DNA from: an uncultured Clostridia bacterium
GTDB lineage: Bacteria; Bacillota; Clostridia; Christensenellales; Borkfalkiaceae
DNA: 64,000 nt
Reading direction: 5' to 3'
NCBI GenBank assembly: GCA_947627765.1
Contig: CANQXA010000005.1
Span: 1-64,000, forward strand
Program-made: the position numbers and the translations under genes
The notes under the pieces: model-generated
Told to the model about the DNA's origin: nothing
The model's database searches: none
What the model saw: only the letters and a program-made list of their open reading frames with translations
Shown: piece after piece, positions 3,601-49,175 of the stretch
How the letters are laid out: each line of letters opens with the position of its first letter
Numbering within the stretch: position 1 is the stretch's first letter

Positions 3601-6600
3601 CACCCGCTTACGGATCGCCCGAATTTGCCTACGGCGAGACGTTCGAATCCGTCTTCGGCGCGATCAATTACATCTATGCCCGCGAGGACAATGAGCCCGT
3701 AGAGGGGTACCATGTCGGGAAGTATACCGTCACGCTCGAGCTCAAAGCGGCGAATTATGCGATCACGGTGAACGGCGGGAAGTTCCAAGTCACCCCGAAA
3801 GATCTCACCGTCGCCGCCCAAGTGGACGGTTTGAAAAACGGGAATTCCGTCTACGGCGATACGCTCACGCCCGCCCTTTCCTATGAAGGATTTATCGGCG
3901 GCGAAGAGGCGGAATTGACCAAAGGCGCGAAGATCGTCTACCGCAAGGGCGAAGCCGATTTTACCGAACAGCTCACCGTCGGCACGTATACCGTCGCCGT
4001 GACGGGGCTCGAAGGCCTTACCGACTACGCCGTTTCCTATACTTATAACGGCGCTTCCTCGCTCTCCTTCACGGTCGAAAAGAAACCGCTCACCGTCACC
4101 GTTTCCATCGAAGAGAAGTTCACCTACGGCGATCCGATCGCGCCCAACGAGGCGGCGTTCGATGGATTTGTCTATGAAGACAGTTTCAAGTCCGTCTTCG
4201 GCGGCACGATCGATTACAGCTATGCCCGCGAGGACGAAAAGCCCGTAGAGGGGTACCATGTCGGGGATTATCGCCTCACCGCCGCGCTCAACGAGGCGGA
4301 AAACTACGAGGTGACGATCAACTACGGCAGTTCGTCCGCACGCTATTGCGCGTTCCAAGTTGCGAAGAAATCGCTCACTGTCACCGTCACCGTCAATGAA
4401 GAAGCAGAGGAAACTCTTGCCTACGGCGAAGCCTATACGCCCGCTGTGACCTTCGAGGGATTCATCGATGGCGAAGAGACGAAATTGACCGCGGAGAAGG
4501 CGTTCACGTTCAATGGCAATTCGTCCTATGCAAAGCTCGGCGTCGGCGAGTACACCGTTAAAGTGACAAATCTCGGCGACCTCTCCGACTACGAAGTCAC
4601 CTATCAAAACGCGACGCTCCATATCGAAAAGAAGCAGATCGCCGTCACCGTCACGCAGGGCGATCTCGTCTACGGCAACAAGCCCGCGCCCACCCATAGC
4701 GATCCCGAACTCGCTTACGAAGAGACATTCGAAACCGTCTTCGGCGCGCCTTCCTACATCTATGCCCGCACGGACGGAGAGGACTTCGAGGGGTACCATG
4801 TCGGGGAGTATACCGTCACACTCAAGCTCGAAGCGGCGAACTATGCCGTAACGGTGACCTCCGACGACTTCAAAGTTACACAGAAAGGTCTCGCCGTCAC
4901 CCTTCATGTCAACGGCGAAGCCTCCGCCGCGCTCACCTATGGCGACGAGTACAAGTTCACCGCTTCCTTCGATGGCTTTGTGATCGGCGAGAGCGCGCCC
5001 GAAGCGGGCAAGTATACCTTCCTCGTTGACAAGAGTTCTTCCTATGAAAAGCTCGGCTACAAGGATGGGAGCTACGAGCTCACCGTGCAGGGGCTTGAAG
5101 AGCTCCTTCCCGATTACGCGCTCACCTATACGAATGCGACCTTCACGGTAGCCAAGAAAGCGCTCATCGTGACGGCGCCCGATGCGCAGAACGGCACCTA
5201 TGGCAACTCCTTCTCGTGGAACGGGGTCACCGTTTCGGAGGGCGTGTATGGCGACGCAATCTCCGTCTCCTATACGATCAGCTCCGATCATGAAGATTCC
5301 ATTTCCGCGCTCAAAGACATCAAGCAGGCGGGCAGTTATACGGTCACATATGCGGTTTCCGCGACGAGAGACGGAAAGGACGTCCTCGCCAACTACGCTT
5401 TGACCTCTTCGGGATCCTTCTCGATCACGATCGCAAAGGCGACTGTCACCGCGCCGACGAAAATTGAGAGCAAGACGTATAACGGAGAGAATCAAACCGC
5501 CGATGTTTCGGTTCCGAGCGCTTCTCATTATACCGTGAAGGAAAATAAAGGCGGAACGAACGCCGGCGATTACGATGTCGTCCTTGCGCTCACCGATGCG
5601 AGAAACTATCGTTGGGCGGATAGGAGCGGAGACGACGAATCCGCCGAATACAAGCTCGCCTTCACGATTACGAAGCTCATCCTTACGGTGAGCGAGACGG
5701 CCACCAAGACCATCGGCTCCGGTTGGTCATCTTCTACCCTCACGCTGTCCGATCCGAAGTTTGAGTTGGTCGGTACGTTGAAGCTGAAAGATCCTAAGCT
5801 CGAAGGCGCAACGACCAGATCCTACTCGCTCAATGGGACGGATCTTAGCGGCGATTTTGAATGGACGGAACCTTATAAAGTGACCTTAAACGGGGAGGAC
5901 GTGACCGCAAATATCACACTTTCCTATGCGATCACCATTACGATCACCAATTATAAACTCGACGTTACGGTAGGAGGCAATTCCTTCACCTATGACGGAA
6001 CATCGCACTCCGTTACGTTCACCGTCAAAGACAGCGACGATTCCGTTGGGTTTACCGTTGAAATCTTTAAGGGCGGGAAATCCGTTGGAAATTCCTTCAC
6101 AAACGTCGCAGACGGCGGGAATTACACCTATACCATTACCCCGACCGATTCCGCCAAGTACGACAAGATGGAGGGCCTTTCCTTCACCCTCACGATCGCG
6201 AAGGCGAAGCTCACGGTGACCAATCCCAAAGACGTCAGCGCAACGTATAACGGCGAAAATCACTTTGCTAAGGTTACCGAAGTGAAGGGCGTAAACGGTA
6301 GCCCGATCGGCGAATTCACCGTCACATATAGCAAGAACGGAACGGAAAGCTACGGCGAGGCATTTGAGCTCATCAATGTTGCCGACAGCGGGAAGGTCTA
6401 CTACAAAGTCTCTGCGGGCGACAACTACGAAGAAGCGAACGGCTCCTACACCGTCACGATCGCGAAGGCGACTGTCACCGTGCCGGAAATCGCAAGCAAG
6501 ACGTATAACGGTGAGAATCAAACTGCCGCGGTTCCGGGCGATTCGCTCTATCAGGTTACGAAAAATGAAGGCGGCACCGACGCCGGGAAGTACAGCGTCA

Positions 6601-35718: not shown

Positions 35719-36318
35719 ATGCAACAACAAAAATTCATCACATCACATTGGCAACGTGTACGGAGAGCTAAGGAACGGATCCCAAGCCTTCCTGAGAAGA
35801 TTTCGATTATCGACAGGGAGGCTTATGTGGAATTTTTTCTTCTCGAAGATGTAGCACGGTTGTACGAGTATCGGTTAGAGCAAGAAAAACGAAAGGTGGT
35901 GACAACGTCTGCCGGTCAACGGGCAAAACTCGCAAACATCGAAAAATTCACCGCGGTCATAAACTTGTTCAATTCCGCCATTGAAATTGCTTGGGGACAC
36001 ATTACTTCCGGAAACTATTCTGCGGTATGGAAAGCGATTCCGGAGCATGCGTTGATGGTGGCGGCAGGCAGCGTGAAAAATCTTCCAACGCTCCGCAAGA
36101 TCGCCGTAGATCTTCTAAAAGAACTTATGGACGAAGCCGTCGTCGCAACGGGAGCAAATATCGGGTTTGAAGAGGATCAGGTCCAACTTGACGCGCATGA
36201 CGCCAACGTCCGTAGCGTAAAGGGTCTACCTGCGCCGGAGGAGATCGCTGCGCTCATTAAGGCGGTAGAAGTTGCTATCCCGGATAAACAAAAGGCTCCT
36301 CGAACGAAAATCAATTAA
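35719..36318 (+). CDS. Helical protein of unknown function, first gene of the ESCRT-like island
   Basis: A 199-residue soluble protein; AGGAGG lies before the ATG. No family is recognised. It is predicted mostly helical. The N-terminal 65 residues are basic and amphipathic ('WQRVRRAKERI', 'LYEYRLEQEKRK'). A middle region (70-140) has more hydrophobic helices ('AVINLFNSAIEIAWGHI', 'TLRKIAVDLLKELMDEAVV'), and the tail is a short amphipathic helix ('PAPEEIAALIKAVEVAI') plus a basic end. It heads a row of thirteen same-strand genes and is probably a structural or adaptor partner of the Snf7-like protein that follows after 34 bp. Confidence 0.7.
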   Translation: MQQQKFITSHWQRVRRAKERIPSLPEKISIIDREAYVEFFLLEDVARLYEYRLEQEKRKVVTTSAGQRAKLANIEKFTAVINLFNSAIEIAWGHITSGNYSAVWKAIPEHALMVAAGSVKNLPTLRKIAVDLLKELMDEAVVATGANIGFEEDQVQLDAHDANVRSVKGLPAPEEIAALIKAVEVAIPDKQKAPRTKIN

Positions 36319-36352
36319 ACACGAAAATCAAATAAAAAGGAGAAAATAAAAA

Positions 36353-36961
36353 ATGGCAAAAAAATCCAACGATGAAAAAATTATCGCAGCGATGGATGCG
36401 CTTGATACAGGCGTTCGCACATTGGAAAAGTATGGCGCAAGATATGACGAACACATTGATCGCGCCGCACTCCGTGGGGATGATGCGAGAGCGAAACAGC
36501 TCATTAAACAAAAGCACAGAGTGTATTCGCTCGCAGAACAGCTTGTGACATTGAAGAGTAATATTGAGCTTGGTGCTTGTACGTCGCAAGCCATCTCGCA
36601 ACTCGGCGCGATCCCCGCGGCGATCGCCGGTTGCAAAGGACTTCTCGCGGAAACGCCCAACTTTGCGAAACTCGGAAAAAGTATCAAATCGATCTTCAAG
36701 GATATGAATAAGTCCGAGGCGGAAATCGCAAAGTTAAACGCGATCCTGGAACCCGAACCGGCTCAGACGGTGGCGAGCCGTTTGGACGGCACGGTCGTTT
36801 CCGAAGAGGAGAACAGCGATTGGTTCAAGGCCGAGTATGCGGCAATGGTCGAGCGCGTGAAGCACAAGATCGCGCCTGAATCCGTAGCGAAACCAGAGAT
36901 CGATGAAGCAACGGGCGACATTGACTACGAAGGCATTATCGAAGACGAGAAGAAAAAATAA
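36353..36961 (+). CDS. Snf7/ESCRT-III-like coiled-coil protein
   Basis: A 202-residue helical protein; AAGGAG precedes the ATG. Residues 10-75 form a long charged hairpin ('ALDTGVRTLEKYGARYDEHI', 'RGDDARAKQLIKQKHRVYSL'), matching the ESCRT-III core pattern of a basic helical pair with the 'GD..RA..L...K' turn. A small/apolar helix (85-110) and a helix like Snf7 helix 4 follow ('LGKSIKSIFKDMNKSEAEIA'). The last 60 residues are acidic and end in 'DIDYEGIIEDE', where eukaryotic ESCRT-III proteins carry the motif bound by MIT domains. The next gene encodes a Vps4-like AAA ATPase with an MIT-like N-terminus, which strengthens the call. PspA/Vipp1 are the known bacterial ESCRT-III relatives; this protein is not obviously one of them. 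The homology is inferred from pattern and context, not proven. Confidence 0.6.
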   Translation: MAKKSNDEKIIAAMDALDTGVRTLEKYGARYDEHIDRAALRGDDARAKQLIKQKHRVYSLAEQLVTLKSNIELGACTSQAISQLGAIPAAIAGCKGLLAETPNFAKLGKSIKSIFKDMNKSEAEIAKLNAILEPEPAQTVASRLDGTVVSEEENSDWFKAEYAAMVERVKHKIAPESVAKPEIDEATGDIDYEGIIEDEKKK

Positions 36962-36963
36962 TC

Positions 36964-38169
36964 ATGTCAGAAGCAAGTATGATGGGGGTTTTCAATTCCA
37001 AGATCTCCTCTTTCAACGAGGCGGTCAGAGCGCAGGATACCGAGGCAATTTCTGAGATCGGAGCGGAATTGCTCCGCATCGGTCTTGATGAGTGCGCAAA
37101 GCCTAACGTGGGGGCAGGTCTCAAGGAAACCTACCGTAAGCAGTGCCTAACGGTTGTATCTTATCTTGCGAAACTCGCACGGACAGTCGCCGCGCCCGCT
37201 TCTGCGGGGGCGGCGACTGACGGAGCAGATCCGTATTATGCGCCACAACAATGGTTTTCGGACGAAGTGCCAAACCTTGGATTCAAGGATATCATTGGGG
37301 CGCAAGAGGTGAAGAACGCCTTTATGGTGGACATCGTTGCTCCGCTACGTTCCGAATTTCGCGAAATATATCGCAAATTTCGGGGTGAACAACTCGGCGC
37401 ACAAATCCTTCTTTACGGCCCTCCAGGAACGGGTAAAACGCACATCGTCAAGTGCCTTGCCGGCGCTCTCAATTGCAAAATTGCTGTCGTGCAGACGAGT
37501 GAAGTGCTTGCAAGTATTGTTGGCGTTGCGGAGAAAAACATTCGCGATATTTTCGCGCAAGCAGCCGAACTCAGCCGTTGTATCATTTTCTTTGACGAGA
37601 TCGATAGCATTTGCGCTGATCGCGATTCTGAAGATAGCCGCCATACAAAGTCAATTTTGACGACACTTCTAACCTGTATGGATGGGTTTATGAAAACGAA
37701 GCGCGAGGGGCAACTCCGCATCATTGTTGCGGCGACAAATCTTCCGTGGAAACTCGATCCTGCGTTGAAGCGCGGCGGCAGATTTGAGACGCAAATTTAT
37801 GTTCCGCTACCGGATGAGGAGGCGGTTAAAAAGTTTGTCTCGTTGCATCTTGAAAAGGTACCTCACGACCAGAATGTCACTGCGGATGTTGTGGCGGCAA
37901 AACTTAAGGGGTATTCCGGAGCAGACATCAAGGCTGTCATGAAGCAGATTGCCAATCGTCCGCTTAGGCGAGAGGTCGAAAACGTTCTTTCCAAGGAGAT
38001 AGGACGCCCTCTCGGCGAGCGCATCACGATGAATGACTGCAATGAAGTCATCGAAAAATATATTAATGGTGTGACGCCGGAGATGTTGCTTCACTTTGAG
38101 GCATACACCCGCGGCATTTCCTATGAAGCTCTTCTTGAACTTATTAAGAAACGGAAATTAAATCAATGA
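36964..38169 (+). CDS. Vps4-like AAA ATPase with MIT-like N-terminal domain
   Basis: A 401-residue classical AAA ATPase. Residues 1-75 form three helices of MIT type ('FNEAVRAQDTEAISEIGAEL', 'KETYRKQCLTVVSYLAKLAR'). A linker follows, then the 'FKDIIGAQEVKNAFMVDIVAPL' entry seen in Vps4/katanin-type proteins. Walker A is GPPGTGKT (152-159), Walker B is IIFFDEID (207-214), sensor 1 is Asn259, and basic residues 269-273 are in arginine-finger position. The pore-loop aromatic of Vps4 is replaced ('LASIVG'), and the Vps4 beta-domain insert is absent. The C-terminal helix is present. It starts two bases after the Snf7-like gene and overlaps the protease gene by ATGA. Probable role: remodelling filaments of the Snf7-like protein. 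Confidence 0.8.
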   Translation: MSEASMMGVFNSKISSFNEAVRAQDTEAISEIGAELLRIGLDECAKPNVGAGLKETYRKQCLTVVSYLAKLARTVAAPASAGAATDGADPYYAPQQWFSDEVPNLGFKDIIGAQEVKNAFMVDIVAPLRSEFREIYRKFRGEQLGAQILLYGPPGTGKTHIVKCLAGALNCKIAVVQTSEVLASIVGVAEKNIRDIFAQAAELSRCIIFFDEIDSICADRDSEDSRHTKSILTTLLTCMDGFMKTKREGQLRIIVAATNLPWKLDPALKRGGRFETQIYVPLPDEEAVKKFVSLHLEKVPHDQNVTADVVAAKLKGYSGADIKAVMKQIANRPLRREVENVLSKEIGRPLGERITMNDCNEVIEKYINGVTPEMLLHFEAYTRGISYEALLELIKKRKLNQ

Positions 38170-39212
38170 TATTGAAGAAGAATCAAATTTCTGCGTTGTT
38201 TTGTAATGCCAGGGAGTGCGTACGCTTGGGACAAGCGCGTGTGGCACGTTCGTATGTTTTACAGTTGCTTGATGGCGCACTCGAAAGTTACGGTAATGCA
38301 TCCACAATACTCAAAAAAGCGAAGTTGGCGGCCTTTATGGATCATTGGATCGCTGTTTCTCGTGAACTATATGCAAGGGGGATTACAGACTTTGTACTCG
38401 AAAGTTTCGGCCTTCCTGTAAAAAAGTCAAATCCTCACCTGAAAACGCCGCCCGTATCTGTCCCGAAGCCGGCGCCGCCGAGTATTGCTCCCGCCTCGGA
38501 GTCTCCGCGGGCGCAAATGCCGTCCGCGGAAATTCCGCGTGATGACGATATCGATTATTCGGGTCTCATTGAAGAGACGAAAAACACGCAAGGCTTATGT
38601 GCGGAGGTGTTTGAGAAGAACAAATTCTCGGTTGCGGAAATTTACGTGACCGGCAATGGGAAACTCGCAAGTGGTACGGGATTCATCATTTCGGGGAAAG
38701 GGTATCTTCTTACCAACGATCACGTTGTTTACGACAAAACAAATGAGGTCTACTATCCCAAAATTTCCATGAAACTTTATAGCGGGCAGAAGCGATATCG
38801 GCTTGAAGTGCTATTCTCCGACCGAAAAACTGACATCGCGCTTTGTAGATTCGATCCTGAAGAAGTCGGCAAATTTGCGAGTATTAAGAGCATTGCCGAT
38901 TATTCGTCGTTACAACAGGGAGCGGATTGTATTTTAATAGGAAACGGATTTGGTATGGGGCTTGCGCCATTTTCCGGTGAAGTCCGATATACAAAAGACA
39001 GCGACGGCAATTTGGTTCATACTGCGCCTTCTAACCCGGGTGATTCGGGTGCGCCTGTATTTAACCGGCAGGGTGAGTGCATCGGAGTCAATAAATCCAA
39101 GACGGTAAAGATCAATGCGGAAACCGCCGATGGGATTGCAAATGCCACCCCGATGGATACCGTCAAGGAACTTCTCGACAAATGGTGCAAGTGTAACGAT
39201 ATCGAATTATAA
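38166..39212 (+). CDS. Trypsin-like serine protease with MIT-like N-terminal domain
   Basis: A 348-residue protein. Residues 1-75 form an MIT-like helical bundle ('NARECVRLGQARVARSYVLQ'). Residues 85-125 are a proline-rich linker, and residues 128-138 ('DIDYSGLIEET') nearly repeat the tail of the Snf7-like protein. The chymotrypsin/HtrA-like fold follows with a complete triad: His186 (TNDHVV), Asp223 (KTDIALC) and Ser294 (NPGDSGAP). There is no PDZ domain, signal peptide or TM, so unlike most HtrA proteins it should act in the cytoplasm. Translational coupling to the AAA gene suggests the protease docks on the ESCRT-like assembly and is an effector. Confidence 0.85.
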   Translation: MILKKNQISALFCNARECVRLGQARVARSYVLQLLDGALESYGNASTILKKAKLAAFMDHWIAVSRELYARGITDFVLESFGLPVKKSNPHLKTPPVSVPKPAPPSIAPASESPRAQMPSAEIPRDDDIDYSGLIEETKNTQGLCAEVFEKNKFSVAEIYVTGNGKLASGTGFIISGKGYLLTNDHVVYDKTNEVYYPKISMKLYSGQKRYRLEVLFSDRKTDIALCRFDPEEVGKFASIKSIADYSSLQQGADCILIGNGFGMGLAPFSGEVRYTKDSDGNLVHTAPSNPGDSGAPVFNRQGECIGVNKSKTVKINAETADGIANATPMDTVKELLDKWCKCNDIEL

Positions 39213-39249
39213 TAAAGGATAATGAACCCACAGAGAGGAAAAACCACAA

Positions 39250-39957
39250 ATGAAGAAGAAAGCACTGTTTAACATTTTGACATTCAGCACTTTACAATAT
39301 GATTCCAAAAAGAGTCCGCTTTTTGTATACGTTGACCGTATGCGTGATGTTTTGTCCTGTTGCGGTGAAGATGAAGAGATCCCGCTTTTGGGCGATACGC
39401 TCAGCGTTCTCAAAACTCAAGACCGCTTTGACCGATTCATCAAAGAGACAGGCATAGAAAAACTTCGCGACTGGTTGATAAATCTGTTCGCACAGTGCCA
39501 GATATATGCCGGCCGCCGCAGTCTCATGATGTGTTTGAATGATGTGCAAAAAATCAACAGAGGCGAGAAGATCTTTAGCTGTATCATGATCCCGCTTGTG
39601 CTTATTTTGATCATGGCGGCACTTGTGTTTACCGTGCTCGGTTCGGTAGGCGTCTTAAAACAAAAACTTGCAGAAACGATATCTACTGTGATCGGTGCGG
39701 CGGACTTCATTCTCGCAGGTCTGTTCTTTATCTACGAACAGATTTCCGATCACAACAAGAAAAAGAGTTTTCAGCTTGAAGAGGCGACGAGAGCAAAAGA
39801 TGAAGCAACCGTATTAGAGGCGACGGAAAAGACGATCGTGAAGATCAATATTTCCAAGGATGACCATTCAACTCATATTACACAAGGACCCAACAACGAC
39901 AGGAGCATTCAAGTCGGAATCAGTGATGGGCCAATCACGCAAAACAATCAATATTGA
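39250..39957 (+). CDS. Two-TM protein with C-terminal N/Q/G-rich beta motif
   Basis: A 235-residue membrane protein; AGAGG lies before the ATG. Residues 1-105 are soluble and helical. Two TM segments follow (about 111-134 and 143-164) with a short loop, then a charged helix ('KKKSFQLEEATRAKDEATVL'). The C-terminal 32 residues, starting 'DDHSTHITQGPNN' and ending 'GPITQNNQY', are rich in N, Q, G, H and alternating hydrophobics and contain IQVG. They align with the first 42 residues of the next protein, so I infer homotypic beta or amyloid-like pairing, as in bacterial amyloid signalling or RHIM-type motifs. Both termini should be cytoplasmic. Function otherwise unknown. Confidence 0.7.
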   Translation: MKKKALFNILTFSTLQYDSKKSPLFVYVDRMRDVLSCCGEDEEIPLLGDTLSVLKTQDRFDRFIKETGIEKLRDWLINLFAQCQIYAGRRSLMMCLNDVQKINRGEKIFSCIMIPLVLILIMAALVFTVLGSVGVLKQKLAETISTVIGAADFILAGLFFIYEQISDHNKKKSFQLEEATRAKDEATVLEATEKTIVKINISKDDHSTHITQGPNNDRSIQVGISDGPITQNNQY

Positions 39958-39983
39958 TCTTTTACTCGCAGAGGAGATAATAA

Positions 39984-42638
39984 ATGGACGCCAACACGAG
40001 CAATACACATATCGATAATCATTCCACAACGATAAGCCAAGGCGATAATTACGGCGGGATTGCCGTGGCGATCAACCATGGCGAGATCAAACAGACGACC
40101 AATGTTCAATTAATTTACATTGACCGTAGCGGGAAGCCAGGGGATTTTAAGGAATTTCTCAGGCAAAACAATAGTAAATTGTCTGAAGAAGACCTGGATA
40201 AGATCATAAACAAAGTATTTCCGTACGTTAAAAACTGTCCCGATCAGCGGATGTCGTATAATGAAATCGCTAAGATCGACGAAATTGACTCCATTCTTAA
40301 CAAATCTTTAGAACCCATTAAGGAAACTGCGAAAAAAACACAAGAGTATACGGAAAAAATAATTTCTATGTTAATCGGTTTCTCCGACCGAAAACCGATT
40401 GGTGAAGACGCGAAAGGCAAAACTACGCCTTCGGCGGATCTAAATGCTTCCGAGGAATCATGGGAACAAATGCTTGGCGTGGCACAGAGCCTAAAGCGGT
40501 TTAAGAAATATAAGGTGAAGGTCGAGAAACATGAAGAGCGGGCGAGGAGTGGGAAACGGGCAAGAAGATGTGCCGCAAGAGATTATTTCGAGTTGGGAAT
40601 GTGCTATGCGGTGGGCAAAAAAGATTATACAGAAGCGGTAAAATGGTATTCTCGTGCGGCGGAATTGGGTTATGTGGATGCTTATTCATTGCTTGGAACT
40701 TGCTATTTTTGGGGTTCGGGAGTGGAAAAAAATGAGGCTGAAGCGGTAAAATGGTACTCTAAAGCGGCGCAGAAAGGAGATGCATCAGCGCAAAACGGCC
40801 TTGCCGTTTGTTATTTCGAAGGACGCGGTGTTACAGAAAATGAAGCAGAAGCAATTAAATTGTGGAGAAAATCTGCCGACCATGGAAATACGCTCGCATT
40901 TTATAACCTTGGCGAATGTTACGAGGAAGGCTCTGGATTGCCTCAGAGTGACAAGAAGGCGGTAAAATATTATAAGGTCGCCGCAAAACAGGGCGTTACC
41001 TCTGCGCAATATGTTCTTGGAAAAGCATATGAATCCGGGCGTGGTGTTGAGGAAAGTCGAAATAAAGCAGCGAAATGGTATCGAAAAGCCGCAGAACATG
41101 GAGATGTAAAAGCCCAAGAAGCATTAAAGAAATGGGGGGAAGCCCTCCCTGAAAAAATCGGCGGCGAAGAAACAGGCTCCGGTATTTTCGCAATTCTACC
41201 GAATAAAATTGTTTGGTGGATTTTGACAGCACTTGTATGCGTCAGCTCCATAGGCGTTACCGTTTTATATTGGAACGGATATTCGTTTTTAGAGTTTGAT
41301 AGCATATGGGGTTGGGTCTTCACGGTTTTATTCTCAATAGCTTGCCTTGCCTTTATCCTATATCGGCTAATCACATCAAATGGTACATGGAGCAGTAGAA
41401 TAAGGTCACCAGGCATAAACATAATAACAGACCTCGTTATGTATGGTGTGCTTTTGGAGGGGGCTTCTGGCGTTTGCTATGGTATCAAGGATCATATTGT
41501 TTGGTTGTTCGCAATAAGTATGGTTGGCGTTGGGGTCGTCTGCTTCATGTATACTATGTATGTTGACTCTGAGTTGAAGACGAGGCCACTATATTTTATC
41601 GCCAACCTTGTAGCGATGAGTTTGTTTGCCGTGTGCTTGTTGGGGGGAGCTATTGCTTTTGGTCGGTATCGAATATATGGGGATGTGTTGACCGTAGGGC
41701 AACATCATTATATGATCAATAAAGATGGAACATTGACGTTTCTAATGGAAGATCATAACGAGGAAGCTATCATTATTCCAAGCGAATGCAATGGGAAGAC
41801 TGTCACTGGAATAGAATCAACGGGAGAGGGATGCCCCGATCTAAGACATATTACCATTGCATCAAGCGTGATATCGATCGGAGAGGGGGCGTTCTCGGGT
41901 TGTAGTTCACTTGGGAGCGTAACATTTGAAGGGGACAGCCAATTAACTTCGATTGGGGAGGAAGCATTCTCGAGTTGCTATTCGCTTACAAGTATAACGA
42001 TTCCCAAAGGCGTGACTTTGATTGGGAAGGATGCGTTTAATTGGTGCTATAAACTTGTGGAGGTTTGGAATTATTCCGATCTTCCGATTACAAAAGGAAC
42101 CTCCAATTACGGCAATGTAGCAAACTACGCAAAGCGAGTATACATGACCGATGAAACAAGTAAGCAGATGACGACAGACGACGGATATATCTTTTATGAA
42201 GACGGAAAAGAGATTTATCTTCTCGGCTATAATGGACATGAAACGACGCTTGTCTTTCCCGATCTAAGCCCGAGCGGAAAGCCTTATAAGATTTATGATC
42301 ATGCGTTTTGGGAAAACGATTCATTAAGATCTATTAAGATTCCCGAGACCGTGGCTACGATAGGGAGTTGCGCTTTCGTAGGCTGTGGTTCCCTTAAAAG
42401 CGTGACATTTGAGGACAACGGAAAATTGACCTCGATTGAATATATGGTGTTCTATAGATGTAGCTCGCTTAAAAGCATTGTGATCCCTCAGGGCGTGACC
42501 TCCATCGGCAGTGATGTGTTTTTCGGTTGCAGTTCACTTACAATTTACTGCGAGACGGCGGAAAAACCTGGCGGATGGGACGAGGATTGGAATCCCAACG
42601 GCCGTCCCGTAATATGGGGATACAAAGGGCAATCTTAA
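39984..42638 (+). CDS. Receptor-like protein: beta motif, Sel1 repeats, five TM segments, BspA-type LRRs
   Basis: An 884-residue protein; GAGGAG precedes the ATG. Residues 11-42 carry the N/Q/G/H-rich beta motif shared with the preceding protein. Residues 50-195 are helical. Residues 195-385 are five Sel1-like repeats ('A..WY.KAA..G...A...LG..Y'). Five TM segments follow (about 406-428, 442-462, 480-500, 505-526, 536-560). Residues 570-860 are BspA-type LRRs ('SIGEGAFSGCSSLGSVTFEG', 'IPKGVTLIGKDAF'). Five TMs put the Sel1 repeats in the cytoplasm and the LRRs outside, the layout of a receptor. I infer ligand or envelope-damage sensing outside and recruitment through the beta motif inside. Confidence 0.85.
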   Translation: MDANTSNTHIDNHSTTISQGDNYGGIAVAINHGEIKQTTNVQLIYIDRSGKPGDFKEFLRQNNSKLSEEDLDKIINKVFPYVKNCPDQRMSYNEIAKIDEIDSILNKSLEPIKETAKKTQEYTEKIISMLIGFSDRKPIGEDAKGKTTPSADLNASEESWEQMLGVAQSLKRFKKYKVKVEKHEERARSGKRARRCAARDYFELGMCYAVGKKDYTEAVKWYSRAAELGYVDAYSLLGTCYFWGSGVEKNEAEAVKWYSKAAQKGDASAQNGLAVCYFEGRGVTENEAEAIKLWRKSADHGNTLAFYNLGECYEEGSGLPQSDKKAVKYYKVAAKQGVTSAQYVLGKAYESGRGVEESRNKAAKWYRKAAEHGDVKAQEALKKWGEALPEKIGGEETGSGIFAILPNKIVWWILTALVCVSSIGVTVLYWNGYSFLEFDSIWGWVFTVLFSIACLAFILYRLITSNGTWSSRIRSPGINIITDLVMYGVLLEGASGVCYGIKDHIVWLFAISMVGVGVVCFMYTMYVDSELKTRPLYFIANLVAMSLFAVCLLGGAIAFGRYRIYGDVLTVGQHHYMINKDGTLTFLMEDHNEEAIIIPSECNGKTVTGIESTGEGCPDLRHITIASSVISIGEGAFSGCSSLGSVTFEGDSQLTSIGEEAFSSCYSLTSITIPKGVTLIGKDAFNWCYKLVEVWNYSDLPITKGTSNYGNVANYAKRVYMTDETSKQMTTDDGYIFYEDGKEIYLLGYNGHETTLVFPDLSPSGKPYKIYDHAFWENDSLRSIKIPETVATIGSCAFVGCGSLKSVTFEDNGKLTSIEYMVFYRCSSLKSIVIPQGVTSIGSDVFFGCSSLTIYCETAEKPGGWDEDWNPNGRPVIWGYKGQS

Positions 42639-42663
42639 TGTACAAGCAAAAAGGAGAGATGAT

Positions 42664-44172
42664 ATGGAATTCAAGGATCTATTTCGTGAGAAATACAGGG
42701 CGGCGCTTCTTGCCGCGAGGGCGGGAAACAAACAGGGCGTGATCGACGGTCTTCGGGATCTCTATTTGATTTTTGCAGAACAATACCGCAAGGGAAACGG
42801 AGATCCTATCGTTATCAAAGCAAAGCTCAAACGTTGGCAGGATATCTTCGGTGGGTATATCGAGATCGTGCGGACGCACGGACTTTCCGATTTGCGTATC
42901 AGAAAGTTCTTTGGCCTTTCCGATGATGCGTCCCTACCGACTTTTGGGGATCTTATTGGTGGCGCGAAAGTTCCTACCGACCCCAAGGAAAGTGAAATTG
43001 ACATTATTGGTATTTTTCCTTCCGAGACGGGCGAACCTGCGTCTGCTCCCGCGATGGAAGTTCCCGCACGAGAAGACACGGGGCCCGAGGAAAAGACCCC
43101 GGGCAGATCGGTCGGCGACCCATCCGAAGATAAGGGAGAGGAGACCGGCAGTGAACTATCTGGCGAACCGTTGCCTTATGAAGGCGGCGAAACGGTGGCC
43201 AAACCCGCATATGAGCCTGACGCTCTGGAAAATTTTATCGGACAGCAACATATCGTGAAAGTCCTTCTCAAGGAAATTGCCATCGCAAAAGCGGAGGGAA
43301 AACGGCATCTCGATAATATTTTACTTTTTGGCAATCCGGGGCTTGGCAAGTCCACGCTCATGCGGCTCATTGCAAAGTCGCTCGGCGTACGTTTTGAATG
43401 GATGGACTGCTCGCAGTATCGAAACAGCCAACAGTCTTTGAAAGCGCTGCAGAATTTCCTCATGCGGGTCGCACGTGAGAACGAACCCGTCGTAATTGCT
43501 TTTGATGAAGTACATATGTTGACAGATGAATTGCAGTCGAGTCTTCTCACTTTGCTTGAAAGCAGAGTTTATGTCTCTCCGCCGGATATTAACGGGAACG
43601 TGAAGCGCATCCCCATTGAAGAATTTACATTTATCGCCGCGACAACGGATGACGATAAGGTACTCAATACGATAAAGGATCGTTGCTTGCGTTTGAAATT
43701 CCAGATGGTGGACTACACGGCGGAGGAGTTATCGCAAATTTACAGAACAAAGATTGCCGCAAAGGGACTCACGATTACGGAAGAGGCAATCGCCACCTGC
43801 ATTCCGCGTAGCCGTGGTTCCATTCGCTACGTTAATTCTTTTGTGGAAGGGCTCAGCCGCGAACTTTACGACGATAACGGCCGTCGCGTCTCTACCCATA
43901 TCGATCTTGCCGTTGCACAGCGGTTCTTTGAAGAGCGGGGGATTGATCCCATCGGCTTGGAAAAAAAGGACCTTGAAATTTTGCGCGTGATCGGCGAGGA
44001 GGCGGGCGGCGTGATTGGTGCGGAAACGCTCTCCGCCCGCGTTGGTCTCGACCCAAAGAAGTATCTTTCTGAATATGAACCCTATCTCGTGAAAATCAAA
44101 TTTGTATCCATTACGGGCCGTGGCCGCTCGCTCACGGAGCAGGCGATACAATACCTTAAAAAGGCGGAATGA
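42664..44172 (+). CDS. RuvB-like AAA+ ATPase with MIT-like N-terminal domain
   Basis: A 502-residue protein; AAGGAGAG precedes the ATG. Residues 1-80 are an MIT-like bundle ('FREKYRAALLAARAGNKQGV', 'IKAKLKRWQDIFGGYIEIVR'). Residues 111-121 ('EIDIIGIFPSE') resemble the acidic motif of the Snf7-like protein and the protease. A disordered acidic linker (122-180) leads to a RuvB-type module: Walker A GNPGLGKST (223-231), Walker B VIAFDEVH (277-284), sensor 1 in 'IAATTDD', arginine finger near 340. The winged-helix end reads 'DLEILRVIGEEAGGVIGAETLSARVGL' and 'YEPYLVKIKF', as in RuvB. RuvB itself drives Holliday-junction branch migration; the N-terminal extension and neighbours suggest a repurposed motor. 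Confidence 0.85.
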   Translation: MEFKDLFREKYRAALLAARAGNKQGVIDGLRDLYLIFAEQYRKGNGDPIVIKAKLKRWQDIFGGYIEIVRTHGLSDLRIRKFFGLSDDASLPTFGDLIGGAKVPTDPKESEIDIIGIFPSETGEPASAPAMEVPAREDTGPEEKTPGRSVGDPSEDKGEETGSELSGEPLPYEGGETVAKPAYEPDALENFIGQQHIVKVLLKEIAIAKAEGKRHLDNILLFGNPGLGKSTLMRLIAKSLGVRFEWMDCSQYRNSQQSLKALQNFLMRVARENEPVVIAFDEVHMLTDELQSSLLTLLESRVYVSPPDINGNVKRIPIEEFTFIAATTDDDKVLNTIKDRCLRLKFQMVDYTAEELSQIYRTKIAAKGLTITEEAIATCIPRSRGSIRYVNSFVEGLSRELYDDNGRRVSTHIDLAVAQRFFEERGIDPIGLEKKDLEILRVIGEEAGGVIGAETLSARVGLDPKKYLSEYEPYLVKIKFVSITGRGRSLTEQAIQYLKKAE

Positions 44173-44302: not shown

Positions 44303-45169
44303 ATGAAAATTACATTGCGAAACAGAAGGAACTTATCTCAGCCAAATCGAATCCTGCGTTTTGGGGATTCCATGAAGGCTGGAGAATATGGTTTTTCACA
44401 TCATGGGGATATCCTCGTCGGAACCTCGGATCCCGAAGCAAACGAATATGAAAATACGCTTAAATGCGGTCTATCGGGTGCACTTGAGCAAGCGTATAAC
44501 GGCGGGGAGAAGGCTGTATCCATCGATGTCGGATCCTTTGCGTCGCAGAACGAGCCGTGCGATTACTATGCGAACGCCATTCTTGATGCATTGTGCGAAT
44601 GGCGGCAAACGGAGGGTGATCCCAAACTTGATGTCTGTCTCGAATGCGATTTGCGTAACAGAGACGGGATCTTGGCGCGTGTCGAGGAAGCATTGATAAA
44701 TCCTGTCATTGTCAAGGAGTTAGTGTTGCAGTTGAGCGGGTTTTCCTTCGCGAAAGTCGATAGGTATTTACAAGAGCATCCCGCAGAAATGCCCTTCCGC
44801 GAACGGATCAATGATATCGTGAAAACCCGATACAACGACAAGGCCTCTCTCGTATACAAAAGAGCGGGCGTTTCGAGATCAGTATACTCGAAGGTGACGA
44901 GCCCTTCTCATGTCGACTATCTGCCCTCGAAACCCACCGTTGCGGCACTTGTCATTGGCTTGAGATCCAGGCTGGAAGAAGCGCAAGATCTTTTCCATTC
45001 CGCCGGATATCATTTGGGCGCGGTTGAATTGCTAGACCGCATAGTCACGTTTTTTCTTAGGGAGGAGATCTATGATATCCACGAAGTCAATAGCTGTCTC
45101 TACGCCTACGGGCTTCCGCTTCTCGGAGAACATATGCGGGCGGTAAGTGTTTCTCTGGACCAGGGTTGA
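44303..45169 (+). CDS. Macro-like domain protein with C-terminal HTH-type domain
   Basis: A 288-residue protein; GGGAGG precedes the ATG. Residues 55-105 ('CGLSGALEQAYNGGEKAVSI' then 'YYANAILDALCEW') follow the second half of a macro domain (ADP-ribose binding), but the glycine-rich phosphate loops and the early N-D pair are not visible, so ligand binding is doubtful. Residues 170-275 ('LVYKRAGVSRSVYSKV', 'KPTVAALVIGLRSRLEEAQDLFHSAGYHL', 'IYDIHEVNSCLYAYGLPLLG') match an XRE-like domain usually fused to macro domains in Firmicutes. It has its own promoter, so it may regulate the system or sense an ADP-ribose-type signal. Confidence 0.6.
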   Translation: MKITLRNRRNLSQPNRILRFGDSMKAGEYGFSHHGDILVGTSDPEANEYENTLKCGLSGALEQAYNGGEKAVSIDVGSFASQNEPCDYYANAILDALCEWRQTEGDPKLDVCLECDLRNRDGILARVEEALINPVIVKELVLQLSGFSFAKVDRYLQEHPAEMPFRERINDIVKTRYNDKASLVYKRAGVSRSVYSKVTSPSHVDYLPSKPTVAALVIGLRSRLEEAQDLFHSAGYHLGAVELLDRIVTFFLREEIYDIHEVNSCLYAYGLPLLGEHMRAVSVSLDQG

Positions 45170-45267: not shown

Positions 45268-45867
45268 ATGACGGAAACGAAGGAAGAATTTTCGTGGCAA
45301 TACAGCCTAAAGCGGAATACCATCAACATCTTCGAGCCGATCACGGCAGAGACGGCGGAGCGCGTTATCAGCCAGCTCCAATATCTTGACGACAAATTCC
45401 GCACAGATGAAGTGCCGATGGAAGAGCGCATCATCACCATTCAGATCGATAGCCCCGGAGGGAGCGTCTCGGACGGGCTTGCTATCTATGATACAATGAA
45501 CTACATCGACGCAAAGATTGCGACGGTGGGGTTGGGGATGTGTGCGAGTATGGCGGCATTCCTGCTCTCATCGGGGACACGGGGGATGCGCAGGGCTACG
45601 GAGCACTGCGAGATCCTTATCCATCAGCCCCTCGGCGGGGCAAGCGGACAAGCATCGGATATCATCATCGCCGCCAATCATATCGAACGCATCCGAACAA
45701 GGCTCAACAAAATCATGGCCGAGAATACGGATCAACCCGCTCGGAAAATTCAGAAGGATACCGACCGCGACACCATCATGAGCGCCGCCGACGCAAAGGC
45801 ATACGGACTCATCGACCATGTGATTCCGAGCGGGAACAAAGCAAAAGGGGGAAATAGTCATGTTTGA
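45268..45867 (+). CDS. ClpP-family serine protease
   Basis: A 199-residue ClpP; GAGGAGGAG precedes the ATG. The catalytic triad is intact: Ser94 (GMCASMAA), His119 (ILIHQPLGG) and Asp168 (DTDRDTIMSA), with spacing equal to E. coli ClpP. The oligomerisation Gln/Gly segment 'GGASGQASDI' is present. The N-terminus is longer and more acidic than housekeeping ClpP and has an inserted loop ('DDKFRTDEVPMEER'), so it may not pair with the usual ClpX or ClpC. No full Clp unfoldase is encoded here; the AAA proteins of the island, or the degenerate AAA protein that overlaps it by 8 nt, are candidate partners. Confidence 0.92.
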   Translation: MTETKEEFSWQYSLKRNTINIFEPITAETAERVISQLQYLDDKFRTDEVPMEERIITIQIDSPGGSVSDGLAIYDTMNYIDAKIATVGLGMCASMAAFLLSSGTRGMRRATEHCEILIHQPLGGASGQASDIIIAANHIERIRTRLNKIMAENTDQPARKIQKDTDRDTIMSAADAKAYGLIDHVIPSGNKAKGGNSHV

Positions 45868-47479
45868 CCATCTGACCGAAATCATGCTCAAAAACTACTT
45901 TATCGCGGAAAACACTGTCGGGCGGTTCTATGACGATAAGCGTCCGCTCTTTTTCACCTATGCCAAAATCTTCCTTTTGCCGCAGGAAGAGGCAGAGCGG
46001 CTCTTTGCGCTGTCGCAGGCGCAAGAGGTCTTGCGGGTTCAGAGCGAGCACGAATATCACCAGTATCTCCGCATGAAACAATACCTCGCCATGAATGCGC
46101 GTTCGGCTGCCGCAGATACCGAAATCGATGAAATCATCTACCTGAAGGGAACCGCTTTCACGCTGGCACTTAATTTTCAACTCATGGTCAACGCAAAGGA
46201 TGTGCGCTCGGTGGCCTGTGAAAATCTAACGATTGCTGCAGAGGATGGGCTTGTCCTTGCGCTCAATACGCTCGGCATCTTGCAATCGGAGGGAATTGTC
46301 TTTCATAAGGACGAGGGGAACGGATGCAAGAAAATTCTCAGCGCGGCGGAATGGAACTGCGAAGAGGGCTTGCTCGCGGCGCTTCATTACGATCCGGAAA
46401 ATCGGGGAAAATATCTTGAATGCCTGCAAGGTTGCCTTGTCCGCATCGGACACGCCGAAGTGTTCGAAAGAGCATTGGAGAAGTACGGCTCCTATACGAA
46501 GGGGGAGCATGGGGAGTATCGGCTCCTTGAAAAAGCGTTTCGGCAGGGGATCATCAAGCGGGACGTTTACAACAAGTCCTATGCGCGTCTCGTCTATTCG
46601 GAGATCCTCGGCGAGCATGACAAGGAAACGCTCCTTCTTACGCCGAACAAGGAATTGTTTGCTGAAGCGAGTTCGTTGCCTCTCAAACTCAGACATGGTA
46701 CGGCTGAATTCCATGCAAAGGCGCTTGACGGAGTCCGCCCCGACCACCCTGAAGAGAGTAGCAAGGTCCTTTGTGCGCTCGGAAATATCGATTTGAGGGG
46801 CATGGCAACATACCGTCCGCTCTGCTTCGTATCGGATAGCAAGTTTATGCTTGACTATTATGCTACATTACTTCCCCGATGCTTTGAGACGTCTCATGTG
46901 GAGCGGATCGAAATTGGCGACCTCGTGGATTACGACTTTGAACCCACAAAGAACAATATTTTTGTGCGTGGTTGCGATGAGGACGCATTTAACCTGTATC
47001 TGCTTACATTTCGCGGGGAAATCACCGAAAGGGCATTTGATATGGCAAAGAATTTCTTACAGAGTAGCAAGCGCGGGAAATATCGACTGAACCATCCGAG
47101 TGTGGCGCTCGATCTTTCTTCCGTGCTCCCCGTCTGCTTCTGCGACAGAGAGAACGCCAAGAAGCTGAAACCTTATTGCGACATGGTCCGAATCGCAGAG
47201 CTTACAGCGAAGGAAAAGCGGATTTTTACGGAAAGAACCGTGCAGGGCAAAGGGAACCTCTATGGCGTGAAAGAGCTTAAGATACAGGAAGGACTTTTCG
47301 AGAAACTTTCCATTTACGACATGGATGAGATCGATAGGGCAATCGACTCTGCTGTGCGCGAGCATCGGACAGAAAAACTTCTTCTTACGGAATCGCTATT
47401 GTGTTCCTTTATCGGTAGTGTTGGGTCAAAGAAAAAGGCATATGGTTTCGGAGGGAGTATTCATGACGACCACGAGTGA
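45860..47479 (+). CDS. Protein with helical repeats and a degenerate AAA+ C-terminal region
   Basis: A 539-residue protein; GGGGGAA precedes the ATG. Residues 1-240 are helical, with a Sel1-like stretch ('LALNTLGILQSEGIVFHKDEG', 'ILSAAEWNCEEGLLAALHYD'). Residues 315-500 have the layout of an AAA+ domain without a Walker A: a segment in Walker-B position ('SVALDLSSVLPVCFCD'), then 'CDMVRIAELTAKEKRIFTERTV', as after sensor 1 in Lon/ClpB-type ATPases, then a lid-like helical region. It should not hydrolyse ATP. Overlap with clpP and with the VirD4-like gene suggests an adaptor between protease and motor. I do not recognise a named family. Confidence 0.55.
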   Translation: MFDHLTEIMLKNYFIAENTVGRFYDDKRPLFFTYAKIFLLPQEEAERLFALSQAQEVLRVQSEHEYHQYLRMKQYLAMNARSAAADTEIDEIIYLKGTAFTLALNFQLMVNAKDVRSVACENLTIAAEDGLVLALNTLGILQSEGIVFHKDEGNGCKKILSAAEWNCEEGLLAALHYDPENRGKYLECLQGCLVRIGHAEVFERALEKYGSYTKGEHGEYRLLEKAFRQGIIKRDVYNKSYARLVYSEILGEHDKETLLLTPNKELFAEASSLPLKLRHGTAEFHAKALDGVRPDHPEESSKVLCALGNIDLRGMATYRPLCFVSDSKFMLDYYATLLPRCFETSHVERIEIGDLVDYDFEPTKNNIFVRGCDEDAFNLYLLTFRGEITERAFDMAKNFLQSSKRGKYRLNHPSVALDLSSVLPVCFCDRENAKKLKPYCDMVRIAELTAKEKRIFTERTVQGKGNLYGVKELKIQEGLFEKLSIYDMDEIDRAIDSAVREHRTEKLLLTESLLCSFIGSVGSKKKAYGFGGSIHDDHE

Positions 47480-49175
47480 ACTTTTGGATGGGTACGAAAA
47501 TACCCGATATTATCACTACAACGAACTCGGTGAATCGTTTTCCAACAGCTTTTGGTATGACGAACTTCCCGAACATGAAGTAACGGGCGTACTGAAAGTA
47601 TGCCGTTCTGTGGGAGGACGGCTTCTTCAAACCTATTCGGAGAAGGAGAATCATGTCGGCGTGATTGCGGCAACGCGGCTTGGCAAAACAACTTCTTATG
47701 TTATTCCGACCGTGCTATCTTTTGCGCGGGTGAGGAACAAGAAGAGCATGATCATCTCCGATCCCAAGGGGGAGATTTACCGCCACACCGCCTCAACGCT
47801 CCGCGCGGAGGGCTATGAGATCCTCGTCCTCAATTTCCGTGACTATAAACATTCCGAGTGTTGGAATCCGTTGACGCCGATCTATCGGAAATACCATTCG
47901 ATTTTCAACATCTACAACGAGATCGAGCTTGTGGATACGGAAAACGGTCCTCGCAATCGGCTCCATGGGAAAATATATGAAAGCCAAGCCGAGCTGGATG
48001 AGGAGATCGAACAATGGGAAAGTCTCATGATGGAGGAGGTGGGCAACGATATCGACGACCTCGCTACCATGATCGCACCCACAAAGAAGACCAACGATCC
48101 GTATTGGGAAGACTGCGGTCGCGAGCTTTTGAAGGCGTATCTTTGGGCGATGTTAGAGGACAGCCGCCCTGAGCTTTTGGGCGATTCGGGAAGAACGCAA
48201 ATTACGGAAGAGACCTATTCTTTTGCAACGATCATTACGCTCATGGGAACGCTGAATAAGTCCGAGCATGATTTTGATGGAGGATATTTCACCAACCGCC
48301 CCAAGACATCCCGCGCCTATCAAATTGAAAAGGCGACGATTCCCGAACACGCCCAAACCACCCGCCAATGTATCACAAGCGTATTCGGCTCGCAGATGTC
48401 TATCTTCCGCGAATGCGCGATGCGCCTCGCCACCAGCTGTAACTCTTTCGACATGAATATCCTCACGGGGGACAAGCCCGTCGCGCTCTTCATCGACTAC
48501 CGCGATGAGCTAAAAGTGCATTTTAAGGTCATCAGTCTGTTCATTCAGGACGCCTACCGACTCCTTATTGATCACGCAAACAATCAGCCGGACGGGAAGC
48601 GAAAAATCCCTTTTTATTTCATCCTCGATGAGTTCGGCAATTTTCCGCCCATGAAAGACTTCGAAACAACGATTTCCGCTTGCGCGGGACGCAATATCTT
48701 CTTCATTCTTATCATCCAGTCTTATGCACAGCTCAACAGCGTGTATGGGGACGCCGTCGCTTCCATCATACGGGACAACCTCAATATGCATATATTTTTC
48801 GGCTCAAATAACCCTCAGACGCTTGAAGAGTTTTCGCGGGAGTGTGGGCAGTATACGCGGATCGCTCCCTCATCGGTTCTGAATGGGAAGGGGACAGAGT
48901 TGGACTACTATCAGTTTGAGACGATCCAACTGATCCCCAAGAGCAAGCTTGCCTACTTCTCGCCCGGTGAGTGCATCGTAACGGAAGCAAATTGCGGGTA
49001 TGTGCTTTTCTCCAAGCTGGAGCGCTACTATCTCTGCAAGGAATTCACCGATATGCCGCTTTCCGATGAGAAACAGTATGTCGGGAGAGCGAATCCGTTC
49101 GATAAAAAATATACTTTCCGTTTCAGTCTAAAGGATTTCGTGCAAAGACGACTCAGAGAAATTTACGATTATTAA
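47463..49175 (+). CDS. VirD4/TraG-like (T4CP-type) ATPase
   Basis: A 570-residue protein. I use the ATG at 47463 (GGAGGGAG upstream, 17-nt overlap with the previous gene) instead of an earlier frame start. Walker A is unusual, 'AATRLGKTTSYVIP' (Lys75, Thr76 kept; the leading Gly is Ala). 'MIISDPKGEIYRHTA' and 'FYFILDEFGNFPPMKDFE' with 'FFILIIQSYAQLNSVYG' are typical of conjugative coupling proteins (TraG/VirD4). There is no N-terminal TM, unlike most coupling proteins, and no relaxase or type IV secretion genes are nearby, so conjugation is unlikely. It may move DNA or protein substrates into the system, or be a captured motor. Confidence 0.85.
   Translation: MTTTSELLDGYENTRYYHYNELGESFSNSFWYDELPEHEVTGVLKVCRSVGGRLLQTYSEKENHVGVIAATRLGKTTSYVIPTVLSFARVRNKKSMIISDPKGEIYRHTASTLRAEGYEILVLNFRDYKHSECWNPLTPIYRKYHSIFNIYNEIELVDTENGPRNRLHGKIYESQAELDEEIEQWESLMMEEVGNDIDDLATMIAPTKKTNDPYWEDCGRELLKAYLWAMLEDSRPELLGDSGRTQITEETYSFATIITLMGTLNKSEHDFDGGYFTNRPKTSRAYQIEKATIPEHAQTTRQCITSVFGSQMSIFRECAMRLATSCNSFDMNILTGDKPVALFIDYRDELKVHFKVISLFIQDAYRLLIDHANNQPDGKRKIPFYFILDEFGNFPPMKDFETTISACAGRNIFFILIIQSYAQLNSVYGDAVASIIRDNLNMHIFFGSNNPQTLEEFSRECGQYTRIAPSSVLNGKGTELDYYQFETIQLIPKSKLAYFSPGECIVTEANCGYVLFSKLERYYLCKEFTDMPLSDEKQYVGRANPFDKKYTFRFSLKDFVQRRLREIYDY

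Follow-up and report, generated by a model that had tools for sequence, protein, structure and literature searches.

Does an operon of an uncultured bacterium encode a machine of the type formed by ESCRT-III (endosomal sorting complex required for transport III) and the AAA ATPase Vps4, and which function would such a machine serve? A published survey places the combination of these two proteins in archaea and eukaryotes only. The question is raised by a stretch of 64,000 nucleotides, here called the window, which corresponds to positions 1-64,000 of the forward strand of contig CANQXA010000005.1 (assembly GCA_947627765.1, an uncultured Clostridia bacterium of the Borkfalkiaceae, with a genome of 1.46 Mb in 46 contigs). 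Seven consecutive genes of its + strand, g1 to g7, are the subject of this work. The best explanation for them, in which confidence is about even, is a mobile platform of ESCRT-III/Vps4-like type in gut bacteria, linked to pairs of receptor and membrane effector that can be exchanged; most likely it is a conflict system, for immunity or for regulated death of the cell. Fold, gene order and conserved tail support an operon working like an ESCRT-III/Vps4 machine. The genes and their parts are as follows.

35719..36318, + strand: g1, a helical protein of 199 amino acids, directly 5' of the Snf7-like gene
36353..36961, + strand: g2, an ESCRT-III (Snf7)-like protein of 202 amino acids (Pfam, AlphaFold, Foldseek)
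36920..36940, + strand: g2 tail motif IDYEGII at the C-terminal end, in a position like that of an MIT-interacting motif (MIM) (motif scan)
36964..38169, + strand: g3, a classical AAA ATPase, Vps4-like, with conserved Walker A/B and RGGR (Pfam, alignment)
36964..37209, + strand: g3 N-domain, three helices, MIT-like (AlphaFold, Foldseek)
38166..39212, + strand: g4, a trypsin/HtrA-type protease with an N-terminal helical domain (Pfam, alignment)
38166..38435, + strand: g4 N-terminal helical domain, homologous to the g7 N-domain (hhalign)
38550..38570, + strand: g4 linker motif IDYSGLI (motif scan)
39250..39957, + strand: g5, a protein with two hydrophobic (transmembrane, TM) segments, from a recurring 2TM family (hydropathy window, hidden Markov model, HMM)
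39847..39942, + strand: g5 C-terminal pairing motif, containing IQVG (tail/head alignment)
39984..42638, + strand: g6, a receptor-like protein with Sel1 repeats and BspA-type leucine-rich repeats (LRRs), hydrophobic segments lying between them; exchangeable cargo
40002..40094, + strand: g6 N-terminal pairing motif, matching the g5 tail (tail/head alignment)
42664..44172, + strand: g7, a RuvB-like AAA+ ATPase with a C-terminal winged helix (Pfam, alignment)
42664..42939, + strand: g7 N-terminal helical domain (hhalign)
42997..43017, + strand: g7 linker motif IDIIGIF (motif scan)

The gaps between these open reading frames (ORFs) measure 2-37 nucleotides, and the end of the AAA gene shares 4 nucleotides with the start of the protease gene, so the seven are read as one operon. 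Their positions and common strand, as given in a preliminary description of this DNA, were confirmed by the ORF list and Pfam, and the LRR/Sel1 protein announced there was recovered as g6, which matches Sel1 (E 3.1e-46) and LRR_5 (E 4.3e-42). The remaining Pfam matches were AAA in g3 (E 1.3e-36), Trypsin_2 in g4 (E 1.7e-19), and RuvB_N (E 2e-16) and RuvB_C (E 2.1e-14) in g7.

The core order, formed by g1, the Snf7-like gene, the AAA gene, the trypsin-like gene, cargo in some positions and the RuvB-like gene, recurs with small losses in 18 further loci and in three fetched afterwards; this recurrence is more than chance would give, and the conservation of gene order in related genomes, on which the preliminary description had made its proposal depend, is borne out. 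A scan of GTDB contigs yielded seven loci where tblastn identified g1, g2, AAA and protease in all seven and the RuvB-like gene in six, in the same order; the contig of L004 ends ahead of the RuvB-like gene. Further loci came from whole-genome searches, and the alignments use 19 loci, the window included. HMMs were run on 19 fetched loci, of which L035 was dropped and eight (L002-L008 and L011) had served to build the models and match by construction. The ten loci outside that construction (L025-L034) contain the AAA gene in 10 cases, the protease in 9, and the RuvB-like gene and g1 in 8 each. L033 has no protease gene and its g1 is an ORF of 116 amino acids, the RuvB-like gene is missing from L031 (a 13-kb contig), L028 stops at its contig end, and g1 of L032 and L034 was recognised by position only. 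Identity of g2 to the window copy in the five most distant loci is 18, 22, 23, 25 and 36%. In the three later loci (L046, L047 and L048), which belong to two further families within the order, the run of g1, g2, AAA and protease is preserved; the RuvB-like gene is whole in L047 and represented by its start in L048, where the contig ends, while L046 also ends at a contig end. L048 is closely related to L027.

The ESCRT-III fold of g2 is supported, not proven, and is drawn largely from a predicted structure. Pfam Snf7 matches 14 of the 19 g2 members taken singly (best E 1.8e-6), and the window protein is the sole Snf7 match at E <= 1 in its genome. In the AlphaFold model, built on a 19-row alignment, helices were predicted at residues 6-40, 44-95, 105-132, 156-173 and 192-201, with the ESCRT-III-like hairpin that had been proposed for the Snf7-like protein. 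The ESCRT-III superfamily accounts for 41 of the best 50 of 160 Foldseek matches in the PDB (E <= 10) and for all of ranks 1-28, CHMP2A-CHMP3 being the first (E 0.013). PspA and Vipp1 share the superfamily fold with g2 and appear at ranks 12, 13 and 21 (PspA) and from rank 18 (Vipp1); unlike them, the entries at ranks 1-11 are CHMP, IST1 and Asgard ESCRT-III proteins, and PspA_IM30 was not matched by any of the 19 g2 members (Pfam, E 0.1). The tail of g2 comprises a conserved C-terminal motif, which presumably differs from the classical MIM1, and a modelled helix.

It is possible that g1 is a second filament subunit. Snf7 was not among the Pfam families listed for g1 relatives (25 of 38 entries), the divergent g1 members found no ESCRT-III among PDB sequences, and an hhalign comparison of g1 with g2 gave no support for a second ESCRT-III protein. 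Two tandem copies of g1, as if duplicated, were identified in L025 (1518-2679) and L029 (5452-6618) by HMM and in L002 (8831-9990) by tblastn.

Residues 1-82 of g3 are confidently modelled by AlphaFold as a bundle of three helices (3-22, 26-45 and 51-76), with a predicted local distance difference test (pLDDT) of 89.5 and a predicted template modelling score (pTM) of 0.76. Among the best 50 of 137 Foldseek matches of this domain, both TM-scores reached at least 0.70 only for MIT domains of Vps4 (4u7y, 2v6y, 2k3w and 1wr0, with values of 0.70-0.80). The MIT-like N-terminus that had been claimed for the AAA protein is supported by fold only. Walker A, DEID and RGGR are conserved in the g3 family, and N-x-P-W-x-L-D is invariant in 19 of 19 AAA members; this signature is shared by yeast Vps4 and not by p97 and FtsH. 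Scores against these references were 166.9 bits for yeast Vps4 and 166.8 bits for p97 D2.

The catalytic H, D and S of the protease are invariant in 18 members. Similar N-terminal bundles had been described in g3, g4 and g7; those of g4 and g7 proved homologous (hhalign 98.6%, E 8.8e-16), whereas the g3 N-domain resembles them weakly by sequence (hhalign 26.5%, P 7e-4), too faint a signal for kinship with that pair to be accepted. A short motif is shared by the partners. Its pattern, [VI][DE][YFILV]x[GA][IL][IVF], was written after the sequences had been seen, so that its rates describe and do not test: 13 of 19 g2 C-terminal tails, 14 of 18 protease linkers, 7 of 16 RuvB-like linkers, none of 19 AAA proteins and none of 21 g1 proteins. 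Among 176 other proteins, with 62,315 residues in total, the single occurrence falls in a cargo protein of the 2TM type. The simplest reading of these sequences is a common docking motif, for which the MIT-like domain of the AAA would be the natural candidate partner.

The exchangeable genes lie between the protease and the RuvB-like gene or 3' of the latter. LRR_5 was identified in 7 of the 20 cargo proteins scanned with Pfam. The Pfam cut-offs are exceeded by the Hsp70 match of L007 and the DUF6273 match of L031; below them are TIR_2 in L025 (7.7e-4) and L027 (2.7e-4) and, just short of the cut-off, DO-GTPase2 in L032 (E 5.3e-6). By tblastn, the window g5 together with the N-terminal part of g6 was found in L006 only, though the cores of other loci are equally similar. 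The 2TM protein family recurs among the loci, as judged by a crude hydropathy window and an HMM, and in L005, L026 and L029 a 2TM domain of the same family is fused to an LRR protein. Hsp70/actin-like ATPases are encoded near the operon in L007 (18066-19865, by Pfam) and L031 (3830-5641, by eye, with no Pfam match at E 0.001).

The pairing of 2TM protein and receptor was tested in 12 two-gene pairs, comparing a 60-residue C-terminal tail, taken from the 2TM protein, with the N-terminus, or head, of the downstream partner. Heads were of 70 residues, with the exception of L030 (140); L003b, L006b and L027b joined after the first nine pairs, and head starts were set by eye in L007, L032, L003b, L006b and L027b (the codon of the last is not ATG, GTG or TTG). 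Ten of the 12 pairs beat shuffled heads (p <= 0.0125), and a tail ranked its own head first in 7 of 12 and within the top three in 10 of 12. Permuting partners gave p 2e-5, likewise without L006 and L025. The motifs differ from locus to locus, with cores such as IQVG in the tail of the window g5 and IQIG in the L006 tail and the L002 head; these cores resemble the RHIM tetrad, and no family model matched. A clear pair of 2TM tail and receptor head was seen by eye in L047, a later locus. Duplication of DNA as the cause of the match between tails and heads was discarded, a strong DNA-level match being identified in L007 only.

A number of results weigh against the reading adopted here. The Snf7 match of the window g2 (E 5.7e-5, residues 8-72) reaches 23.3 bits, below the cut-off of 27.3, five of the 19 g2 members are missed by that family, and 9 of 14 control genomes also yield weak Snf7 matches (E <= 1), none above the cut-off. 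Confidence in the g2 model is low (mean pLDDT 66, pTM 0.45, with residues 1-80 at 74-88), no Foldseek match improves on E 0.013 or passes 0.001, and the TM-scores of ESCRT-III matches over the query length are 0.20-0.39. Searched against PDB sequences, a 9-row g2 profile ranked CHMP2A seventh among ten entries (E 0.12, residues 6-129), and the 19-row profile gave no ESCRT-III at E <= 10, with a TPR protein first (E 0.001). For the g3 N-domain all Foldseek E values are at least 0.74; the first MIT domain is at rank 7 (E 1.7), below six entries including a histidine kinase and ribosomal bS20. By sequence, PF04212 missed the operon and PDB profiles of the three N-domains (g3, g4 and g7) found no MIT. 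NCBIfam ranks CDC48 (3.6e-52) and FtsH (3.5e-48) above CdvC (1.6e-43) for g3, and the four AAA members compared with the reference sequences have neither an aromatic residue in pore loop 1 nor the beta domain of Vps4. The shared motif was present in one of three g2 tails and two of three protease linkers of the later loci, and its pattern also matches the TM segment of two L046 cargo proteins. Two of the 12 pairs (L008 and L006b) failed the shuffle test, known amyloid-motif families (RHIM/HET-s) were not found in g5 or g6 by Pfam at E 1, Pfam leaves 8 of the 20 cargo proteins without a family at E 0.01, and PADLOC found nothing in 10 cargo or neighbour proteins. Since two Vps4 features are absent and both the Vps4 subfamily of the AAA and the MIM of g2 are putative, the operon is a candidate member of the ESCRT systems in the strict sense.

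The distribution of the operon was counted at E <= 0.001, the own genome being included each time. At family level 3 of 151 genomes had a match, at order level 13 of 396, at class level 1 of 391 and at phylum level 2 of 348. Scans of two further families within the order, partly on genomes already in the order count, gave 4 of 74 and 6 of 41. The order count includes G092, the source of L035, which was rejected as a member since by eye its gene is DNA polymerase III gamma/tau (DnaX-like). Weak matches were G1003 in the phylum scan (E 4.3e-4) and G390 in the scan of the 41-genome family (E 6.5e-4). L007 sits in a metagenome-assembled genome called Anaeroplasmataceae. Five of the 19 loci searched, namely L007, L025 (two ORFs), L026, L028 and L032, have a related tyrosine integrase 0.3-1.1 kb upstream of g1, confirmed by Pfam Phage_integrase for L007 and L026; the same 19-locus search did not find it in the window, and L047 has an upstream integrase by eye. 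No relative of the AAA or of g2 was found in the viral contigs searched, nor of g2 in plasmid and phage collections, and the AAA matched only FtsH-like and other AAA proteins in plasmids, all below 60% identity. An origin in phages or plasmids was rejected on the absence of g2 and AAA relatives from viral contigs and of g2 from plasmids and phages. Given the sporadic distribution, the upstream integrases and the absence from viral, phage and plasmid sets, the operon is read as an accessory, mobile gene set.

The composition of the window changes around the operon. GC content is 0.44-0.53 at 30001-56000, 0.575-0.627 at 14-30 kb and 0.54-0.59 past 56 kb, a drop as in an acquired island; the first 14 kb dip too, to 0.50. 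Downstream of the operon (44303-45169) lies a protein with a C-terminal helix-turn-helix-like part, 34% identical to one in L002 (17746-18618), and similar downstream proteins were seen by eye in L011 (6598-7206), L026 (18212-18910) and L029 (16650-17351); this protein is perhaps an added regulator. A block of a ClpP-type protease, a 539-amino-acid protein and a TraG/VirD4-like ATPase follows in the window (45268-49175), is located upstream of the operon in L002 (3142-7046), and a ClpP-like gene is also seen by eye 3' of the operon in L029. In L032 an integrase and g1 flank a NusG/LoaP-like gene (5317-5973, by eye), whose product might act as antiterminator on an operon of such length. L029 contains, upstream of the operon (24-1592), an SPFH/Band 7 protein with a double zinc ribbon; SPFH proteins are linked to ESCRT in the part of PMC11188069 that concerns them.

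Among known systems, archaeal and eukaryotic ESCRT-III with Vps4 (Cdv, CHMP/Snf7) share with the operon an ESCRT-III-like gene directly before an AAA gene with an MIT-like N-domain, the conserved tail, the NxPWxLD signature and further partners with a shared helical domain. The operon differs in being bacterial, in having exchangeable receptors and in that no ESCRT-I/II was recognised in it; with respect to Vps4 systems it adds the protease and the RuvB-like ATPase, and lacks the pore-loop aromatic and beta domain in the members compared. Its partners differ from those of phage shock protein (PSP) operons as covered in the relevant sections of PMC11237479. These also describe transfers of Vps4-like genes to bacteria in which a TPR-6TM gene takes the place of snf7, and a combination of PspA and a double-AAA protein. 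Whether bacterial PspA/Vipp1 have a Vps4-like ATPase is left open in the corresponding section of PMC8281802.

In amyloid signalling, sections of PMC12261475 and PMC8086366 place the motif at the C-terminus of the effector and the N-terminus of the receptor, in neighbouring genes. The bacterial amyloid signalling (BASS) systems show the same arrangement: the motif at the end of a membrane protein reappears at the start of the adjacent receptor, and it varies between loci. Unlike them, the receptors here are of LRR, Sel1, TIR-like or GTPase-like type instead of NLR ATPases, the partner is 2TM instead of Bell, and the amyloid nature of the motifs is putative. The NTP-dependent conflict systems (trypsin, GTPase, 2TM SLATT; PMC7159879, in the sections on these families) likewise have a modular core with variable receptors and effectors and trypsin-like proteases, and the L032 cargo is double-GTPase-like just below the cut-off; the core of the operon, by contrast, is not MoxR-vWA, STAND or GTPase. 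Terms for ESCRT or RuvB are absent from the main texts of PMC7159879 and PMC8195603. IetAS has the same pairing of AAA ATPase and serine protease. IetS is a subtilisin-like protease, whereas the operon protease is trypsin-like (Trypsin_2) and has ESCRT-III-like and RuvB-like partners. Within the operon, PADLOC 2.0.0 matched nothing beyond ATPase and protease domains and identified no complete known anti-phage system. No description of the gene set was found in the literature searched, which covered few preprints and left most subscription journals aside.

The mechanism that would fit these parts begins with the receptor, an LRR/Sel1 protein (g6) in the window and TIR-like or GTPase-like in other loci, which may sense a threat or damage. 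Its N-terminal motif would then dock on or template the matching tail of g5, clustering g5 in the membrane. The g2 protein, perhaps with g1, would polymerise at the membrane, in keeping with its supported fold, and the MIT-like N-domain of g3 could bind the conserved g2 tail and remodel the polymer like Vps4. The protease and, in part, g7 may be recruited to or released from the same assembly, as suggested by the motif in common with the g2 tail (for g7 in part) and by the shared helical domain. Finally the infected cell would die or go dormant, with the ESCRT core either executing or restraining this outcome. The types of cargo (LRR, TIR-like, double-GTPase-like and Hsp70-like parts), the mobility and the paired motifs are what point to a probable role in conflict or cell death, more than to the membrane-damage response suggested in the preliminary description.

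Part of this evidence would also suit a module of membrane repair or envelope stress like PSP or ESCRT repair, where lesions sensed by the receptor are sealed by filament and AAA while the protease clears damaged proteins. An ESCRT-III-like fold beside an MIT-like AAA, the HtrA-type scores of the protease and the membrane proteins in the cargo speak for it; however, the operon is sporadic and mobile rather than conserved, its cargo changes from locus to locus, with TIR-like and double-GTPase-like matches (below their cut-offs) among it, and locus-specific pairing of receptor and 2TM protein looks like specific signalling. This explanation is rather unlikely. The operon could also have nothing to do with ESCRT and be a protein-destruction machine of coiled-coil scaffold, AAA unfoldase and trypsin-like protease, similar to the AAA/protease pairing of IetAS. 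The ESCRT-III sequence signal is weak, the active-site residues of the protease are invariant, and the AAA matches IetA models (PADLOC E 1.9e-38; NF042959 1.7e-33), but mainly over the domain common to classical AAA proteins, and CDC48, FtsH and CdvC outscore the IetA model in NCBIfam. ESCRT-III is strongly enriched in Foldseek, and one locus (L033) is devoid of protease; such a machine is improbable.

A function in the maintenance or transfer of the carrying mobile element, for example in conjugation, would account for the integrases of five loci, the island of lower GC and the TraG/VirD4-like genes that neighbour the operon in three loci: the window (by eye), L002 (as a homologue) and L033 (Pfam). 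Elsewhere no conjugation genes came to notice, though no systematic search was made, the TraG/ClpP block is on opposite sides of the operon in the window and in L002, and the collections of phages and plasmids (for g2) and viral contigs (for g2 and AAA) contain no relatives; this is the least probable explanation, and a very unlikely one. Within the preferred conflict reading, a more specific version can be put forward tentatively, as possible rather than probable: a bacterial counterpart of necroptosis with its ESCRT control, in which receptors with locus-specific amyloid-like motifs trigger a 2TM effector and a filament machine of ESCRT-III/Vps4 type, encoded in the same operon with a tail-recruited protease and RuvB-like motor, executes or restrains the damage.

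If this last version is true, ESCRT served immunity in bacteria, outside the archaeal-eukaryotic line. Removal of membrane pores by ESCRT in regulated cell death is described in the pertinent section of PMC9622947. Should the cargo be immune, one bacterial operon would join two animal themes, amyloid-like signalling from receptor to membrane effector and the removal of pores by ESCRT. The gene set is small enough for transfer and testing. A bacterial pair of ESCRT-III and Vps4 would change the account of where this partnership originated or travelled, or show that it had two origins.

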